IMG/VR virus record: IMGVR_UViG_3300025646_000500
Coordinates: 1 to 20,221 of that record
From: a virus
DNA length: 20,221 nucleotides
Reading direction: 5' to 3' (one strand)
Part shown: one piece after another, positions 4,427 through 20,221 of the stretch
Layout of the letters: every line of letters begins with the position of its first letter
Numbering within the stretch: position 1 is the first letter of the stretch
Translations under genes and position numbers: made by a program
The notes under the pieces: model-generated
What the model saw: the letters and a program-made list of their open reading frames with translations, nothing else
Databases searched by the model: none
Told to the model about the DNA's origin: nothing

Positions 4427-5022
4427 GAACCGAAATGGTAAAGATAAGCGAGGTTAAAAACAATCCGAACAACCCAAGAGTAATAAAGGATGATAAATTT
4501 GAGAAACTTGTAAGGAGTATTAAAGAGTTTCCGAAAATGCTCGAAATTCGACCGATAGTTGTAAATGATGATATGATTGTATTGGGTGGAAATATGCGAT
4601 TAAAGGCGTGTAAAGAAGCTGGTTTAAAAGAAGTGCCGATTATAAAGGCAAGTGATTTGACCGAAGAGGAACAAAAGCAATTTATTATAAAGGATAATGT
4701 AAGCGGTGGAGAATGGGATTGGGAAATGTTGCAGAACGATTGGAATTTAGAGGAATTAGACGAATGGGGTTTGGATGTTATAGGTTTTAATTTAGACGCT
4801 GAGGAATTAGGTACAGATTTTACTTTACCAGATGGAGACAAAGCACCTTTTCAACAGATGACTTTTACCCTTGCTGATGAACAGGCGGAGCAAATAAAAA
4901 ACGCAATAGCAGATATTAAAGAAACTGAAGAGTATAAATATTGCGAAACAATGGGTAACGAAAACAGCAACGGAAACGCACTTTATTTAATCGTAATGCA
5001 ATGGGCAGAGCAAAGGAAATAA
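4423..5022 (+). CDS. ParB N-terminal-like domain protein
   Basis: A 199-residue phage protein with a ParB/sulfiredoxin-like N-terminal domain. An N-P-R motif lies in the segment NNPNNPRVI near residues 13-21, a helix LVRSIKEF follows, then RPIVVNDDMIVLGGNMRLKA, where GGNMRLKA replaces the GxRRxxA box of true ParB proteins and is a CTP/ATP-binding signature. The C-terminal half is acidic and lacks the ParB HTH and dimer domains, so this is not a chromosome partition protein. Stand-alone proteins of this type are frequent next to DNA-modification genes or terminases in phages. It overlaps the coiled-coil gene by four bases and the Mom-like gene by 22, which makes a role with DNA modification likely but unproven. 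A second ATG exists at 4435. Confidence 0.83.
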   Translation: MRTEMVKISEVKNNPNNPRVIKDDKFEKLVRSIKEFPKMLEIRPIVVNDDMIVLGGNMRLKACKEAGLKEVPIIKASDLTEEEQKQFIIKDNVSGGEWDWEMLQNDWNLEELDEWGLDVIGFNLDAEELGTDFTLPDGDKAPFQQMTFTLADEQAEQIKNAIADIKETEEYKYCETMGNENSNGNALYLIVMQWAEQRK

Positions 5023-5717
5023 TAGTAAAGGTAATACCAAGTAAAGTAGCAAATGAGTTTGTAAAGAAACATCATTACAGCGGAAAAGTTGCCTCGACTG
5101 GTTTGATTTGTTTTGGAGCGTTTTTAAATAATAAACTTATTGGAGTTTCACAATGGGGAAGACCGATAAATAAATATTTACATTTACATATAGTTGAAAA
5201 TACAAAATGGAATGATTTTTTAGAATTAAATAGATTAGTTTGTATAGATGACACGCCAAAAAATACTGAAAGCAGATTTATTAAGATTTGTTTAATGCTA
5301 ATAAAAAAAAATGCACCGCAAGTAAAATGGGTTATGAGTTTCGCAGATGCAACACAATGCGGAGACGGAACTATATACAGAGCAAGTGGGTTTGTTTTAA
5401 CAAATATAAACGATAGTAAACAGCTTTATGAATTGCCAAACGGGGACACCCTACATTTAATGGGTTTACAAGGTGGACAGCACGGAGCATTAAGAAAAAA
5501 AATGTTAGAGAGTGGTTATGGTAATGCTAAAAAATATATGGTCGAGGTTTTAAAAGGAAAAGTATTAGTGGGTAAACAATTAAAATACATTTACTTAATA
5601 GATAAATCTTGCAAAATAACAGTTCCAATATTACCATTTAGTAAAATAGATGAGATGGGAGCGGGAATGTATAAAGGTAAAAAAATAACATTACAAGAAC
5701 GTAAAGAAAAAATTTAG
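5001..5717 (+). CDS. Mom-like GNAT-fold DNA adenine modification protein
   Basis: A 238-residue protein resembling the Mom family, named for phage Mu Mom, which converts adenine in phage DNA to a methylcarbamoyl derivative and so blocks host restriction. Supporting stretches in order are the KKHHYSGK segment at residues 22-29, the beta strands GAFLNNKLIGVSQWGRP (39-55), the block FLELNRLVCIDD near 73-84, and MSFADATQCGDGTIYRASGF near 112-131. This combination (HHYS, ELNRL, S-x-AD, YRASGF) is what I associate with Mom-like GNAT proteins. The start overlaps the ParB-like gene by 22 bases. The tRNA-like element follows at once. A related GNAT protein of unknown substrate is the main alternative. 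Confidence 0.72.
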   Translation: MGRAKEIIVKVIPSKVANEFVKKHHYSGKVASTGLICFGAFLNNKLIGVSQWGRPINKYLHLHIVENTKWNDFLELNRLVCIDDTPKNTESRFIKICLMLIKKNAPQVKWVMSFADATQCGDGTIYRASGFVLTNINDSKQLYELPNGDTLHLMGLQGGQHGALRKKMLESGYGNAKKYMVEVLKGKVLVGKQLKYIYLIDKSCKITVPILPFSKIDEMGAGMYKGKKITLQERKEKI

Positions 5718-11161: not shown

Positions 11162-11192
11162 GTGGGGGCGTAATTGCCCCCACTTTTTTTTT
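11162..11192 (+). terminator. Strong intrinsic terminator after the capsid gene
   Basis: A perfect eight-base-pair GC-rich stem (11162-11169 with 11176-11183) closes a six-base GTAATT loop and is followed by nine T. It lies between the capsid gene and the glycosyltransferase-like gene, whose ATG is only six bases downstream. Confidence 0.92.
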
Positions 11193-11198
11193 GGTAAT

Positions 11199-12011
11199 AT
11201 GAATAAAGTAATATACATAATGGCAATATATCAACGCCATGAATTAACTAAGATAGTGTTAGACTATTACAAGGAATTGGGTATTGATTTAATAATTGCG
11301 GGTAGTGAGGGCGTAATAAGTCAAGATTTGGCAAAAGGGTTTAAGTATATCGAAACGCCAAACAGTCCGCTAACTTACAAGAATAATGCAATGTTAAAAG
11401 AGGTGCAGAAATATGAACATGACGCGGTTGTGTTGTTGGGTAGTGATGACTTGATTTGTCCTAATACGGTGGAATTTTACAAGCACCTAAAAACAGATAA
11501 AGTATTTGGGTTTAGTGATATTTATTTTTATTCAACTGAGCATAAACAACTCGGATATTTAGAACTCGACAAACATTTTGGAGCTGGGCGTTTTTTCCCT
11601 AAGTCGGTATTAGAAAAATGCAATTATAAAGCTTGGCAAAGGCAAATAGATAGGGGGTGCGATATGGAAACAGAACGATATTTTAAAACATTGGGGATTG
11701 AATTTGAGCGAATAAGTATAAAGAAAAACAATCTTTTTTTAATAGATATAAAGCACGATTATAATATCTCGAGCAAAAACATTATCTTTGCTTGTAAGAA
11801 AGAAAACTTTAATATTATGGCTAAAAAAGTAGGAAAACAAACAGCGAATAAAGTAGAGCAGTTAACATTTACACCTAAAGCAGTGTTAAACGGTTACGTG
11901 CGTGTAATTTGTAACGACAAAAACGAAAGTTTAAAGGGGCGTACATTGTTGTTGCCTGAGGAAAAAGCAAACTTAATAGTGGCTAAAGGTTGGGGAGTTT
12001 ATGAGGGTTAA
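11199..12011 (+). CDS. Glycosyltransferase-like (GT-A fold) protein with extra C-terminal phage domain
   Basis: A 270-residue protein. The N-terminal 180 residues look like a family 2-type GT-A glycosyltransferase: opening strand KVIYIMAIYQRHELT, helix, second strand LGIDLIIAGSEG, the segment NSPLTYKNNAML, then AVVLLGSDDLI with Asp83/Asp84 as the DxD-like metal and nucleotide-sugar site, and FGAGRFFPKSVLEKC as a likely acceptor-side strand. From about residue 215 a different domain starts, ending LLPEEKANLIVAKGWGVYEG. That ending resembles small phage head-associated domains of the type L-P-x-E-x-A-x-x-L-x-x-KG-x-x. A fusion of enzyme and virion-type domain would be unusual. No promoter box is visible; expression may depend on reading through the terminator. 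It overlaps the next gene by 11 bases. Confidence 0.72.
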   Translation: MNKVIYIMAIYQRHELTKIVLDYYKELGIDLIIAGSEGVISQDLAKGFKYIETPNSPLTYKNNAMLKEVQKYEHDAVVLLGSDDLICPNTVEFYKHLKTDKVFGFSDIYFYSTEHKQLGYLELDKHFGAGRFFPKSVLEKCNYKAWQRQIDRGCDMETERYFKTLGIEFERISIKKNNLFLIDIKHDYNISSKNIIFACKKENFNIMAKKVGKQTANKVEQLTFTPKAVLNGYVRVICNDKNESLKGRTLLLPEEKANLIVAKGWGVYEG

Positions 12012-12714
12012 GATAGAGGGCAAGAATTACGAGGTTAAGACCTTGTTCGGCGAGTATAAAATAAAAGATTTAATTTGGGCAAATCGTATCTTAAGGGAAA
12101 ACGATATGAGCCCTCGATTTTGTATGAAGTTGCTTAAAGAAACGACTAACATCCCTGTTGAGGTGCTCGAAATATTGGATTTTGAAAGCGAAATAAAGGT
12201 ACTTGCTGAAATGAGTTTAATCGGTTTGCGTACTCCTGATATAGATGTGTTCATGGATTATGTGCAAGTGGACGGTGTTAAGTACTACAAGCGTGAAGAA
12301 TTGTTAACCTTAAGCGGTATAAAGGTAATGTTTGGTAAAAACAACTTTAAACAGTTTGCATTAATGGGGCAGTTGCACGATATATTAGCACGTAATAAGG
12401 AAGTTGATCCTACAAACTTAGCTTCATTGGTTGCGGTGTTGTATGGCGAAGACTTTTCGGATAAGGCGATAGAGGAACGAGCAAAAAAGTTTATGGAGTT
12501 GGATTTGTATTCGGCTTTTAGCGGTTTTTTTTTGTTTCAAAGGGAATGGAACAAATTTCTAAATTGTTTGTCGGAATTTTCACAAATGAGAGTTCAAGCG
12601 CTGTTAAGTATCGAGCGTTTGCAAAGAAAATTATTGAAAACAATTTTTGGTTTTCTTTTGCCTTTGAGGTGGCAGAAATGGGAATTTTTAATAAACCTAA
12701 CAAGACGCCTTTAG
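12001..12714 (+). CDS. Probable tail assembly chaperone, zero-frame product
   Basis: The zero frame encodes 237 residues beginning MRVKIEGKNYEVKTLFGEYK. Residues 1-177 look like a genuine helical protein. After the run of nine T at 12525-12533 the remaining 60 residues read as low-quality sequence (rich in Leu, Phe, Arg, Trp), whereas the -1 frame there has normal protein composition. I therefore think the functional longer product switches frame at the T run. A short and an extended product from one gene, in a tail module, is the pattern of the gpG/gpGT-type tail chaperones that coat the tape measure protein. The sequence itself does not show an established family motif, so the function is inferred. 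The start overlaps the glycosyltransferase-like gene by 11 bases. Confidence 0.68.
   Translation: MRVKIEGKNYEVKTLFGEYKIKDLIWANRILRENDMSPRFCMKLLKETTNIPVEVLEILDFESEIKVLAEMSLIGLRTPDIDVFMDYVQVDGVKYYKREELLTLSGIKVMFGKNNFKQFALMGQLHDILARNKEVDPTNLASLVAVLYGEDFSDKAIEERAKKFMELDLYSAFSGFFLFQREWNKFLNCLSEFSQMRVQALLSIERLQRKLLKTIFGFLLPLRWQKWEFLINLTRRL
12525..12533 (+). promoter_or_regulatory. T9 slippery run, probable -1 frameshift site
   Basis: Nine T follow GG, read in the zero frame as GGT TTT TTT TTG. The heptamer T TTT TTT is a canonical X XXY YYZ-type slippery sequence, and a U9 run can also cause RNA polymerase slippage. A TAG in the -1 frame at 12519-12521 lies immediately upstream and the zero-frame stop is at 12712-12714, so the run is at the very start of the overlap window. 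Confidence 0.65.
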
Positions 12715-12800
12715 AGAGTGTACATGAAACTAACTGCATGGATGTACTGCACTATTTAAACGTAAAACAAGCACAAGCTAAATTAATAAATTATGATTAA
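12546..12800 (+). CDS. -1 frame extension of the probable tail chaperone
   Basis: The -1 frame is open from 12522 to the TAA at 12798-12800; 12546 is its first ATG. The sequence (GMEQISKLFVGIFTNESSS..., ending QAQAKLINYD) has ordinary charged, helical composition, unlike the zero frame over the same bases. A -1 shift at the T9 run would join 177 zero-frame residues to 89 residues of this frame, giving about 266. The stop overlaps the next gene's ATG (12793) by eight bases, in keeping with the tight coupling of neighbours; the zero-frame stop leaves a 78-base gap. Independent initiation at 12546 would make an 84-residue protein but lacks an obvious A-rich start context. A missing T in the sequence is the other explanation. 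Confidence 0.68.
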   Translation: MEQISKLFVGIFTNESSSAVKYRAFAKKIIENNFWFSFAFEVAEMGIFNKPNKTPLESVHETNCMDVLHYLNVKQAQAKLINYD

Positions 12801-13263
12801 CAAGATTATTGAATTACTTGAAGAAGTTGCAACCGCCTACACTTATGTACAGGGGTTTAGTTATGCAAGTCCCTACGAGATGAACGGCGCACCAAGTATG
12901 CAATTTCCTCATATTTTAGTAGCTGATACACCTGATTGGAGTAATAAAGGCGAATATCGTGGCAATGGTTTAGGCAATAAAACAACGTGGGATTTAAGAA
13001 TATTCCTATTTGACACTTACAACCAAGCCGAGCGTACAACGGTGGGACGTGCAACCAAGCAACAGGAATTAAAGACTGCAATGGATAGGTATTTGGCAGA
13101 GTTCAAATACAGGGCGTTAAATGAGTTGGGTTACAATGTAGAGTTAAGCAATGGATTTGTAGCCAAACGCCAAATGAATGGTAAATTGGAACAATGTAGT
13201 GCCAACTTGAGGGTAACAGGCAACAACACGTGTGATTTAGGAGTTTTTGAATATGCTGGATAG
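12793..13263 (+). CDS. Probable head-tail joining or tail completion protein
   Basis: A 156-residue protein of the size and pattern of phage tail terminator/completion proteins: an N-terminal helix (INKIIELLEEVATAYTYV), a Gly/Pro/Asn-rich middle (SPYEMNGAPSMQFPHILVAD), a strand TWDLRIFLFDTYN, a long helix TKQQELKTAMDRYLAEF, and closing strands AKRQMNGKLEQCSANLRVTG. That helix-strand-strand-helix order resembles the gpU-like or HK97 gp9/gp10-neighbour fold. No enzymatic motif is visible. It overlaps the following gp10-like gene by 17 bases. The role is inferred from size, position and fold pattern; the exact family is unconfirmed. Confidence 0.65.
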   Translation: MINKIIELLEEVATAYTYVQGFSYASPYEMNGAPSMQFPHILVADTPDWSNKGEYRGNGLGNKTTWDLRIFLFDTYNQAERTTVGRATKQQELKTAMDRYLAEFKYRALNELGYNVELSNGFVAKRQMNGKLEQCSANLRVTGNNTCDLGVFEYAG

Positions 13264-13759
13264 TTGGAGAGCAAAAGGGTTGGAATTAATCGGGGAGTTT
13301 GTGCTCGATTTGATGAAAACGGAACTTGAGGAACAAGGGCATAGGGCAACGGGGAAGCTAATTGATAGTATGACTTACAAAATCAATGGCGATAGTATTG
13401 AGTTTTACGCTGAGGATTATGCGAAATTTGTGGATAGTGGGCGAAAAAAGGGAGCTAGAAAAGTGCCGATAGATGCGTTAATTGCGTGGATTGAGCAGAA
13501 AGGTATAGCAAGTGGAGATACAGAGGTTAAAAAAGTAGCTTACGCAATCCAAACGGCTATATATAAAGAGGGTAGCCCAACGGTTTTAAGTTTGGAACAC
13601 TCAAAAAACGGCAGAAGAAAGGACTTCATAAAGTTTGCAGTTACGGAAAATGAAAAGATTATACTTCAAAAAGTAGTAGAAATATTCGATAAGACGGTTA
13701 AAACCGAGTTTATAAATGAAATGGTAAATATTAGAAAGCAATGGCAACAACGAACTTAG
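13247..13759 (+). CDS. HK97 gp10-like neck/tail completion protein
   Basis: A 170-residue protein carrying the pattern of HK97 gp10-type virion morphogenesis proteins: a helix (ELIGEFVLDLMKTELEEQG) then HRATGKLIDSMTYKI, EFYAEDYAKFVDSGRKKGA, and VPIDALIAWIEQKGIA. The T-G-x-L-x-x-S motif followed by an acidic Y-A-x-x-V-D-x-G-x-x segment is what I use to recognise the family. These proteins act at the head-tail neck. The start overlaps the previous gene by 17 bases and the end overlaps the next by 19, so three consecutive genes are translationally linked. Confidence 0.8.
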   Translation: MNMLDSWRAKGLELIGEFVLDLMKTELEEQGHRATGKLIDSMTYKINGDSIEFYAEDYAKFVDSGRKKGARKVPIDALIAWIEQKGIASGDTEVKKVAYAIQTAIYKEGSPTVLSLEHSKNGRRKDFIKFAVTENEKIILQKVVEIFDKTVKTEFINEMVNIRKQWQQRT

Positions 13760-17101: not shown

Positions 17102-19858
17102 ATGGCTGAAGAATTAATTTACAAACTAAACTTTGAGGGTGCTGATGACGCAACTAAAAACTTAGCGAAACTTAAAAAGGAGTTAGCGGACTTGACCGCA
17201 AAACAAAAGGAAAATAAGGAAGCTTTAAAGCTAGGTACTATTTCGCAAGAGGAATATTACGAAAGTCAGGTTAAGTTAGAAGCTGAAACTAAATCGTTAA
17301 AGGAAGCAACGCGCCAAGCAGAAACGGCATACATGGCAAACGCTAAGGCGTCGGCTGGTGCTGGTATGAGTATAAAGCAACTTAGCGCTGAATTATCCAA
17401 GAATAAACAAGCTTATCAAAATTTAAGTAAAGAGGAACGCGAAAATGATGCAATAGGGGGCGAATTATTACGTACTATCCAAGAGCAAGACAAAGAGTAT
17501 AAAGAGTTACAAGTTAGTATAGGTAATACCCAAGTAATGGTGGGTAGTTATTCAGACGCAATACAATCAAGTTTGCCGTTAATGGGGAGCTTTGGCGGAC
17601 AAATACAGTCTATTATAGGCACATTGGGACAAGTTAAAGAGGCTTTTTCTAAAATAGGTGCGGTTGTCGGTAATCAAAGAACCGTTGTGCAAGGGTTTGG
17701 GAAATCAACGCAATCTACAAGCAACGATATTAATGGGATGTCCGCAAGTATCGGAAATGCAACCGCCTCTACTATTGGGTATAGTCAAGCGCAGAACATA
17801 AGTAACAGTGCTACGCAAGAAGCGACTGCTTCAACAATAGGGTTTCAGAGAGCAACTCAATCCGCTACTGCTTCAACTAAAGCCCAAGCGGTCGCAACAA
17901 ATGTTAGTTCAAAATCGTTAAAACTGCTTAGAATTGCCCTAATTAGTACAGGAATTGGTGCGATAGTGGTGGCTTTAGGTAGTTTAATTGGTGCATTTGC
18001 TAGTACTCAAAGAGGAGCGGACGCAATAGCTAGGGCACTTGGTCCCGTTAAAGAAATTTTTGCGGTGTTCGTGGGTTTCCTACAAGATAAAGCATTGGCA
18101 ATATTCGACCGCTTAAAGGAAGCAATCAACAATCCTAAACAAGCGTTTGTGGATTTATTAGGATTTGTAAAAGATGTTGTAATAAACCGATTTAAAGGGT
18201 TACAAATGTTTTTTGAGGGGTGGGGCAATAACTTTGTGGGTTCGTGGCAAACTTTAGGACTGAAACTAAAAAAGGTTTTAAACAACGTGCCTATAATTGG
18301 AGCGGGTTTAGGTAAAGACGCACTTGCAAAGTTGGATAAAGATATTGCAAGGGCTGAGAAAAAGGTTACAGACGGAGCGCAAAAGATGAAGAAAGGTTTA
18401 GCCCAAGCAACAGGAATGGATGTAATTGCTGAGGGCTTTAATAAGGCGGGGAAGGCAATGGATGAAGCTAGTAAGAGAGCGCAAAGAATGCAAGATATAT
18501 TGGTGGCTATCCGTAAAAGTGAAATTACTTTAAATAGGGATTTGGAGCGTAATAGACGCAAAATGGAGGAGCAAAAGTTAATCTTAGAAAATCAGTTGTT
18601 ACCAATCGAGGAAAGAAATAAGGCGGGTAAAGAATATATGCGTTTGTTGGATGAAAATGTAAAACGTGAAAGTGATATAAGCAAAATGAAGTTAGAACAC
18701 GCACGTTTAAGTATGGAAGCCAACGATACAGATGATGAACAAAAAAAGGCTTATTATGATATGGTTGCAGAAAACGAGCGTATGTTGGCAGAAGCAACAG
18801 GACGACGCATTGAAGTACAAAACAAATTAAATGACTTTCAAAAACAAGCTATTGCAGATGTAAAAAAACAAGAAGAAGAACGTTTAAAAGCACAAGCAGA
18901 AGCCGAAAAGGAAGCGCAAAAAACAGCTTTAGAAAATCAAAAACAAGCATTGCAAGAGCGCATTGCCTTAGAAGAATTTGAATTTAAGAAAAAGCAAATT
19001 TTATTTGGTGGCACCCAACAGGAAGAATACGAGATGGAAGTGGCGCACCAAAAAACAATGCTTGATTTGAAATTGGAATATGCTAAAATCGCTGGGGATA
19101 GTGAGGTAGAAGTTAAGCGCGAAACTGATTTGGCTATATTGGAATTGGAAAAACAAAGGGTAGATAAATTAAAGGAAGATGAAAAAGAGCGACAAGAATA
19201 TCAACTAGGGTTAAAAGCGGAACAAGCTAAAAAACAACAAGAGCAAGTAGATGCAGCGCAAAAGGTAGGCGATGAATTATTTAAAAATGAGGTGCGTAGA
19301 ATTGAAGCAACACAAAAGCGTGAAATTGACAGCCTTACATTAAGAAGACAAGCGGGGGAAATTAGCCAAGAGGAATACGAAAAGAAAAGACTAGAGATTG
19401 AAAAGAAAGCGTTTAAGGAAAAGCAAAATTTAGATGTCAAACAAGTATTAATTAACGCGGTTGTAGGTGCTAGTAAATTGATTAGTCAGTTGGGTATTGG
19501 TGCAATTCCCGCATTAGTTGCTTTAGCTGCCCAAACAGCTGGACAAGTGGCGAATATCAAAGCGCAGAAGTTTAGATTTGGCGGTAACGTTGGCGGTAAA
19601 TTACACTCACAAGGTGGGACAATGATTGAAGCGGAAAAAGGCGAGGCAGTTATCATGCGAGAGGCAGTAAACCCAATTACAGCTCCAATATTATCGGCTA
19701 TTAATACGGCTTACGGGGGCAACCCAATCGAAGCAATAGGACAAAAAAACGCCCCAATGCAAATGCAACCGCAAAGAATTGAAGTCGTGAATGTTGCAAC
19801 TGAAACAACAAATATTTCAAATCGTGTAAAAAATTTACAAAATGCAAGGCGGATATAA
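17102..19858 (+). CDS. Tape measure protein
   Basis: At 918 residues this is the longest gene in the window. The N-terminus (about 3-130) is Lys/Glu/Gln coiled coil with a G-x-ISQEEY repeat motif; a Ser/Thr/Ala/Gln-rich linker with repeated ATAST units follows at about 200-270. A hydrophobic Gly-rich segment (about 273-303, LLRIALISTGIGAIVVALGS-type) is a likely membrane-inserting helix. A long coiled coil fills about 470-800. The end has a second hydrophobic helix and RFGGNVGGKLHSQGG, then EAEKGEAVIMREA, the G-G-x-x-H-x-x-GG-x-x-x-x-x-x-GE-x-x-I signature often found at tape measure C-termini. The protein should set tail length and help DNA enter the host. By the usual scaling, a tail above 100 nm would be expected. 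Confidence 0.92.
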   Translation: MAEELIYKLNFEGADDATKNLAKLKKELADLTAKQKENKEALKLGTISQEEYYESQVKLEAETKSLKEATRQAETAYMANAKASAGAGMSIKQLSAELSKNKQAYQNLSKEERENDAIGGELLRTIQEQDKEYKELQVSIGNTQVMVGSYSDAIQSSLPLMGSFGGQIQSIIGTLGQVKEAFSKIGAVVGNQRTVVQGFGKSTQSTSNDINGMSASIGNATASTIGYSQAQNISNSATQEATASTIGFQRATQSATASTKAQAVATNVSSKSLKLLRIALISTGIGAIVVALGSLIGAFASTQRGADAIARALGPVKEIFAVFVGFLQDKALAIFDRLKEAINNPKQAFVDLLGFVKDVVINRFKGLQMFFEGWGNNFVGSWQTLGLKLKKVLNNVPIIGAGLGKDALAKLDKDIARAEKKVTDGAQKMKKGLAQATGMDVIAEGFNKAGKAMDEASKRAQRMQDILVAIRKSEITLNRDLERNRRKMEEQKLILENQLLPIEERNKAGKEYMRLLDENVKRESDISKMKLEHARLSMEANDTDDEQKKAYYDMVAENERMLAEATGRRIEVQNKLNDFQKQAIADVKKQEEERLKAQAEAEKEAQKTALENQKQALQERIALEEFEFKKKQILFGGTQQEEYEMEVAHQKTMLDLKLEYAKIAGDSEVEVKRETDLAILELEKQRVDKLKEDEKERQEYQLGLKAEQAKKQQEQVDAAQKVGDELFKNEVRRIEATQKREIDSLTLRRQAGEISQEEYEKKRLEIEKKAFKEKQNLDVKQVLINAVVGASKLISQLGIGAIPALVALAAQTAGQVANIKAQKFRFGGNVGGKLHSQGGTMIEAEKGEAVIMREAVNPITAPILSAINTAYGGNPIEAIGQKNAPMQMQPQRIEVVNVATETTNISNRVKNLQNARRI

Positions 19859-19906: not shown

Positions 19907-20221
19907 ATGAGTTGTGCAATAACTTCTAACTTATCGGTAACTTGTGCCGACGAAACTGCAAACGGTGGTTTGTCAAGAATTTTTATGGTAGCAGATAAAC
20001 AAGTGGCGTCTGTTACATTTGGCGTTTCTCCAGCGCATACTATTACAGGAATTACAACCGTTGATAGTGCTAAATTTGTGGAGTACATGGGTAGATTTGA
20101 AACTAAATCTATTGCTACTGAGGCAAACAAAGATAACGGAGGTGTAAGATACACTCACACTATCGAGTTGTTTATCCCTAAATTAAACAAAACTAAAGCC
20201 GAAGTATTAGCGCAGTTAGAC
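19907..20221 (+). CDS. Phage structural protein, possible major tail (tube) protein; 3' end outside window
   Basis: A frame opens with ATG at 19907 and runs to the window edge (105 codons, no stop). It begins MSCAITSNLSVTCADETANGG, followed by short beta strands (LSRIFMVADKQVASVTF), then FVEYMGRFETKSIATEANKD and GVRYTHTIELFIPKLNK. The opening with two nearby cysteines, a GG segment and a later T-H-T-I-E-L-x-I-P-K-L pattern resembles abundant structural proteins of Bacteroidota phages that I would place as tail tube proteins. A dedicated promoter box and strong leader fit high expression. Lying after the tape measure gene is unusual for a tail tube gene. The function is inferred; the C-terminus is not visible. 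Confidence 0.6.
   Translation, partial: MSCAITSNLSVTCADETANGGLSRIFMVADKQVASVTFGVSPAHTITGITTVDSAKFVEYMGRFETKSIATEANKDNGGVRYTHTIELFIPKLNKTKAEVLAQLD

Follow-up and report, generated by a model that had tools for sequence, protein, structure and literature searches.

A probable programmed -1 frameshift at a run of nine T's in a candidate tail assembly chaperone gene of a mostly uncultured phage group

The G/GT tail assembly chaperone genes of phage lambda rely on a -1 shift at the slip sequence GGGAAAG. G/GT frameshifting is widely conserved among long-tailed double-stranded DNA phages despite low sequence similarity (reviewed in PMC5009743). A change of frame can also arise during transcription, as slippage of bacterial RNA polymerase is efficient where nine A's or T's follow one another (PMC5009743), and the dnaX gene is known in both forms, with a ribosomal frameshift at A AAA AAG in Escherichia coli and RNA-polymerase slippage at a nine-base run in Thermus thermophilus (PMC5009743, PMC3711429). 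Here we analysed a 20,221-nucleotide stretch of viral DNA (the window; IMG/VR record IMGVR_UViG_3300025646_000500, positions 1 to 20,221), in which positions 12001-12800 are almost certainly a programmed -1 frameshift gene with a run of nine T's (T9) as its slip site. Its two nested products appear to resemble the lambda G/GT pair in design, and we claim likeness of design rather than membership in a known chaperone family.

The slip site and its two reading frames

The gene is part of a late module that also holds terminase, portal, HK97-type capsid, neck1-like and tape measure genes. The features referred to below are as follows.

12001-12800, plus strand: whole frameshift gene, joined -1 product of 266 aa (open reading frames and joined translation; kept in 14 relatives)
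12001-12531, plus strand: N part, zero frame, 177 aa, common to both products (pN/pS and interclade identity)
12525-12533, plus strand: slip site T9, invariant in relatives of both clades
12525-12531 and 12528-12534, plus strand: the in-frame heptamers T TTT TTT and T TTT TTG within the T9
12531-12800, plus strand: C part, -1 frame, 89 aa plus stop (pN/pS and interclade identity)
12532-12714, plus strand: zero-frame tail, 60 aa plus stop, overlapping the -1 coding sequence (open against chance)
12793-13263, plus strand: next gene, 156 aa, whose ATG overlaps the -1 stop by 8 bases, a conserved neighbour
13247-13759, plus strand: neck1 or tail-completion-like gene, a conserved neighbour (phrog_5, E 9e-4 in the window and 2e-5 in L023)
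17102-19858, plus strand: tape measure protein gene (phrog_20660, E 4.6e-6; tblastn to annotated tape measure genes)

The slip site lies within GGTTTTTTTTTG, which spans 12523-12534 and whose nine T's occupy 12525-12533. The zero frame (12001-12714) encodes 237 aa and a switch to the -1 frame yields 266 aa, the -1 frame being bounded by a TAG at 12519-12521, open from 12522 and closed by a TAA ending at 12800. These frame ends and product lengths, like the T9 itself and the 8-base overlap with the next gene, agree to the base with an earlier sequence-only reading of this DNA. Scanning the plus strand of the window for slippery heptamers that have a long zero frame before them and a long -1 frame after them returned the T9 site only, as two overlapping heptamers, and the codon-usage score favours the zero frame before the T9 and the -1 frame after it.

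A protein search of IMG/VR metagenomes yielded 14 related contigs that fall into two clades, one at 98-100% identity and the other at about 53%. In 14/14 the run counts exactly nine T's and its phase is unchanged, and all of them have the 237-aa zero frame and the 266-aa -1 product, one being cut by the contig end. Identity between the clades is 53-54% in the N part and also 53-54% in the C part, and in the joined protein both parts are conserved across these 14 relatives; the longest DNA stretch identical between the clades is 28 bases, GCTTTTAGCGGTTTTTTTTTGTTTCAAA. In clade 1, pN/pS is 0.04 for the zero frame of the N part before the T9, 0.10 for the -1 frame versus 1.47 for the zero frame within the overlap, and 0.03 for the -1 frame after 12714. 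The corresponding overlap values in clade 2 (0.21 for the -1 frame and 0.37 for the zero frame) are based on fewer changes and are less clear. Substitutions in the overlap sit at third positions of the -1 frame (binomial P 4e-4 for clade 1 and 0.15 for clade 2), and it is this frame, rather than the full zero frame to 12714, that protein conservation follows. At the level of sequence, the comparisons show two nested coding sequences that are joined at the T9 and are both under selection.

A wider family and the zero-frame tail

A 741-aa neighbour gene led to the distant contig L052, whose relatives L065, L066 and L067 likewise encode an N part that is continued, in the -1 frame, by a C part; in the L052 group, a gene resembling the 156-aa one adjoins the frameshift gene. 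A search with the joined-protein alignment found 32 loci, all by protein patterns that leave out the slip site and not by the T run. Thinned to <70% identity and joined by both window clades and the cultured phage P12024S, they make up 23 representatives; in 23/23 the shift point is the same and a C part of 81-95 aa in the -1 frame follows it, which bears out the -1 shift that had been proposed for the window. The site itself varies among the representatives, being T9 in 18, T8 in two and A AAT TTT in three, and its homopolymer never reaches ten T's. At nearly all T9 loci the slip site is the sole A/T run of nine or more. Moreover, the third -1 Phe codon is TTT in 17/17 T9 representatives of the common phase, with TTC at 49% elsewhere in these genes, so that selection acts on the run at the level of DNA or RNA and not on the protein alone. 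The window clades are placed in this larger family by synteny, site, phase and size, sequence tying them to it weakly (hhalign E 0.018, probability 2.6%). We considered GTTTTAAAAAAC as the slip site of L052 and dropped it, as the -1 protein of L066 is conserved from A AAT TTT onward. At another locus (L092, 3001-3507 onward) the C part is shortened and the zero-frame tail differs from that of near-identical loci; the copy may be broken, or two sequences may have been joined in assembly.

The family has cultured members in the Nonlabens phages P12024S and P12024L. A fold predicted for the N part of L064, which is on the same contig as L052 (pLDDT 87.8), matched a 175-aa protein of P12024S that we equated with gp38 by its length, its other matches being unnamed viral proteins. 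In P12024S, gp38 has a T9 close to its end (23578-23586), and gp39 is the last part of the -1 continuation of gp38; P12024L carries the same pair. The annotation of both phages treats the halves as two hypothetical genes and records no frameshift, and PHROGs holds them as two separate families of unknown function, 32199 and 38404, which when joined across the T9 have the same architecture as the window gene. A terminase gene adjoins gp38/gp39 and a neck1-like gene lies downstream, while the codon phase of the P12024S T9 differs from that of the window (CTT TTT TTT TAT). The N-part model of the window itself was poor (pLDDT 59) and fold searches with it gave nothing usable on their own; about a dozen unnamed viral proteins are common to its weak list and to the L064 fold matches. 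Another weak fold match, gp10 of Flavobacterium phage 6H, was not counted, a -1 stop following right after its T6; on the minus strand of that phage (L101, 10047-10927), an open stretch that carries no annotation follows gp10 in a different frame. Searches of cultured phages by tblastn with window and L052-group proteins gave no match, and no relative was found in the bacterial genomes scanned. Since Persicivirga is the host of P12024S and the closest capsid relatives belong to Flavobacterium phages, the hosts of this phage family are probably Bacteroidota.

Past the slip site, the zero frame stays open for 21-61 codons (median 46, 23 representatives), whereas the -1 protein and codon usage lead one to expect a zero-frame stop usually within a few codons. 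The P value for this openness is about 0.01-0.03 for each of the window clades and about 1e-8 for the 23 representatives combined, a figure that is too small because the representatives are related and a simple codon-usage model lies behind it. The controls were null, both for the third frame across this region and for the two off frames of the N part, and synonymous change is lowered in the first 20 codons after the T9. The unusual composition that the sequence-only reading had noted for this tail is thus real, but the tail is not simply dead sequence, since it is kept open against chance. From this we infer that the unshifted product probably carries a real tail or that early termination at this place is harmful, and its being kept open suggests that, in genes of this kind, the overlap of coding sequences is not a mere by-product.

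Ribosome or RNA polymerase

Most ribosomes would stay in the zero frame and make the 237-aa protein, and a fraction would slip back one base on T TTT TTT or T TTT TTG to make the 266-aa protein, which would carry a different C-terminal domain. RNA polymerase adding one T would lead to the same frame and may contribute, so that, while we place ribosomal slippage first, the mechanism at the T9 may be a mixed one. The site variants bear on this point: A AAT TTT belongs to the canonical -1 heptamers and has no homopolymer as long as RNA-polymerase slippage requires, and the lineages that carry it must, to judge from this motif, use ribosomal -1 frameshifting, its presence in three representatives thereby indicating ribosomal slippage as the common mechanism. 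The RNA downstream of the T9 has an MFE z of -1.2, and RNAalifold found no strong conserved helix.

In a purely transcriptional account, RNA polymerase would add one U at the T9, creating mixed mRNAs from which the 266-aa protein is made by normal translation. The preference for exactly nine T's (18/23 representatives, never ten or more), the retention of a ninth T that a single T TTT TTT heptamer can do without, and the highly efficient slippage of the bacterial polymerase on runs of nine A's or T's (PMC5009743) all speak for it. We nonetheless hold this account to be unlikely, though it fares best among the alternatives, because the A AAT TTT relatives have, at the same place, a sequence incapable of such slippage, because two tandem heptamers (T TTT TTT, then T TTT TTN) would also explain the keeping of nine T's, and because an A9 at 5303 lies within another gene of the window with no obvious frame switch. 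Ribosomal slippage, perhaps with a transcriptional share, is the reading that we carry forward. A more elaborate picture, which we put forward only tentatively, is that both frames after the site are functional, with a tail of ~45-60 residues under selection and the T9 held at its length for joint ribosomal and RNA-polymerase slippage, the sister lineages with A AAT TTT being purely ribosomal. The exchange of T9, T8 and A AAT TTT at one site makes a natural series for the use of ribosomal versus RNA-polymerase slippage, and the question is testable since P12024S and P12024L were isolated on a cultured host.

Two further homopolymers were observed in the window. The A9 (5303-5311) is within the gene 5001-5717, which encodes a Mom-family DNA modification protein (Pfam Mom, E 7e-45) and is adjoined by a ParB_N-domain gene. 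A second T9 (11184-11192) lies between the capsid gene and the gene at 11199; it is present in most clade 1 contigs and absent from clade 2.

Role of the gene and comparison with known systems

The frameshift gene and the tape measure gene run in the same direction in the window (starting at 12001 and 17102), in L052 (1811 and 8209) and in P12024S (gp38 and gp49), and the neck genes are near and the tape measure gene downstream in the window, L023, L052 and P12024S. A gene similar in size to the 156-aa one comes next in the L052 group and in P12024S. In the window, the tape measure gene begins 4.3 kb past the end of the frameshift gene, in keeping with the placement far upstream of it that the sequence-only reading had described. 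The window also has a 270-aa open reading frame (11199-12011) conserved in both clades, which looks like a glycosyltransferase-like part in frame with a short part from an internal ATG (MAKKVGKQ...); neither part matches Pfam.

Judged by its architecture, in which two products are nested, neck genes adjoin and the tape measure gene follows after 4.3 kb, the gene is likely to act as a tail assembly chaperone gene of the lambda G/GT design. The 237- and 266-aa proteins would act like lambda gpG and gpGT, binding the tape measure protein, and the -1 domain would recruit the tail tube protein. This role, which the earlier reading had also inferred, fits the architecture and we found no better rival for it; the explanation as a whole, frameshift and chaperone together, has in our estimate a good chance of being right. 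Comparison of the joined proteins with Pfam, PHROGs, NCBIfam and PDB sequences gave no functional match and no chaperone family, the PHROGs matches of family proteins being to unknown-function families only, and the L064 N-part model had no significant match in the PDB. No major tail protein was identified in the module. The gene after the tape measure gene (19907-20221 in the window; 17946-18527 in L023, 193 aa there) has no PHROGs match and is possibly the major tail protein gene, which would thus be downstream of the tape measure gene.

Phages that have a tape measure protein as a rule also need a tail chaperone, and no other candidate for one was seen in the module. This weighs against a different virion-assembly role for the frameshift gene, such as that of a head-tail connector or an extended minor head protein, as does the lack of a significant match to connector or head families. 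Such a role is rather improbable, slightly more so than purely transcriptional slippage, even though the gene is flanked by the terminase and capsid genes on one side and the neck genes on the other and stands 4.3 kb ahead of the tape measure gene, and frameshifts in head genes do exist, for example in phage A2 (PMC5009743). Explanations that dispense with the shift fare far worse. An ATG at 12546 in the -1 frame of the window might suggest two overlapping genes that are started independently, but clade 2 lacks this ATG and its -1 frame has no ATG, GTG or TTG for at least 64 codons after the T9, yet protein conservation begins at the T9 all the same; there the C part can be reached only by a shift, and we reject an independent start as highly improbable. 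Least credible of all is a sequencing or assembly error hiding ten T's and one ordinary 266-aa gene, since, prone to error as homopolymers are, nine T's recur in the window and 14 further assemblies, in distant relatives and in the cultured phage P12024S, the A AAT TTT relatives need a shift too, and the zero-frame tail is kept open.

The programmed -1 frameshift gene is a probable missing tail chaperone of a broad, mostly uncultured phage group, two cultured members of which infect Nonlabens/Persicivirga (phylum Bacteroidota), and whose halves, where the reference library has them, are filed as two separate unknown-function families. With lambda G/GT it shares a single start, a common N part, a -1 shift and a different C-terminal domain, as well as a position upstream of the tape measure gene, and low similarity among phage groups is the rule for such genes. 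It differs from lambda G/GT in that no sequence match is detectable, in lying before the neck genes and several genes away from the tape measure gene, in using a T9 homopolymer as slip site in most family members, and in a zero-frame tail that across the family is mostly about 40-60 codons. The dnaX genes of E. coli and T. thermophilus offer a second likeness, as homologous genes that arrive at a two-product outcome via different slip sequences, one of them a homopolymer of nine. While dnaX differs in gene and function, here the switching between T9, T8 and A AAT TTT takes place within one phage family.
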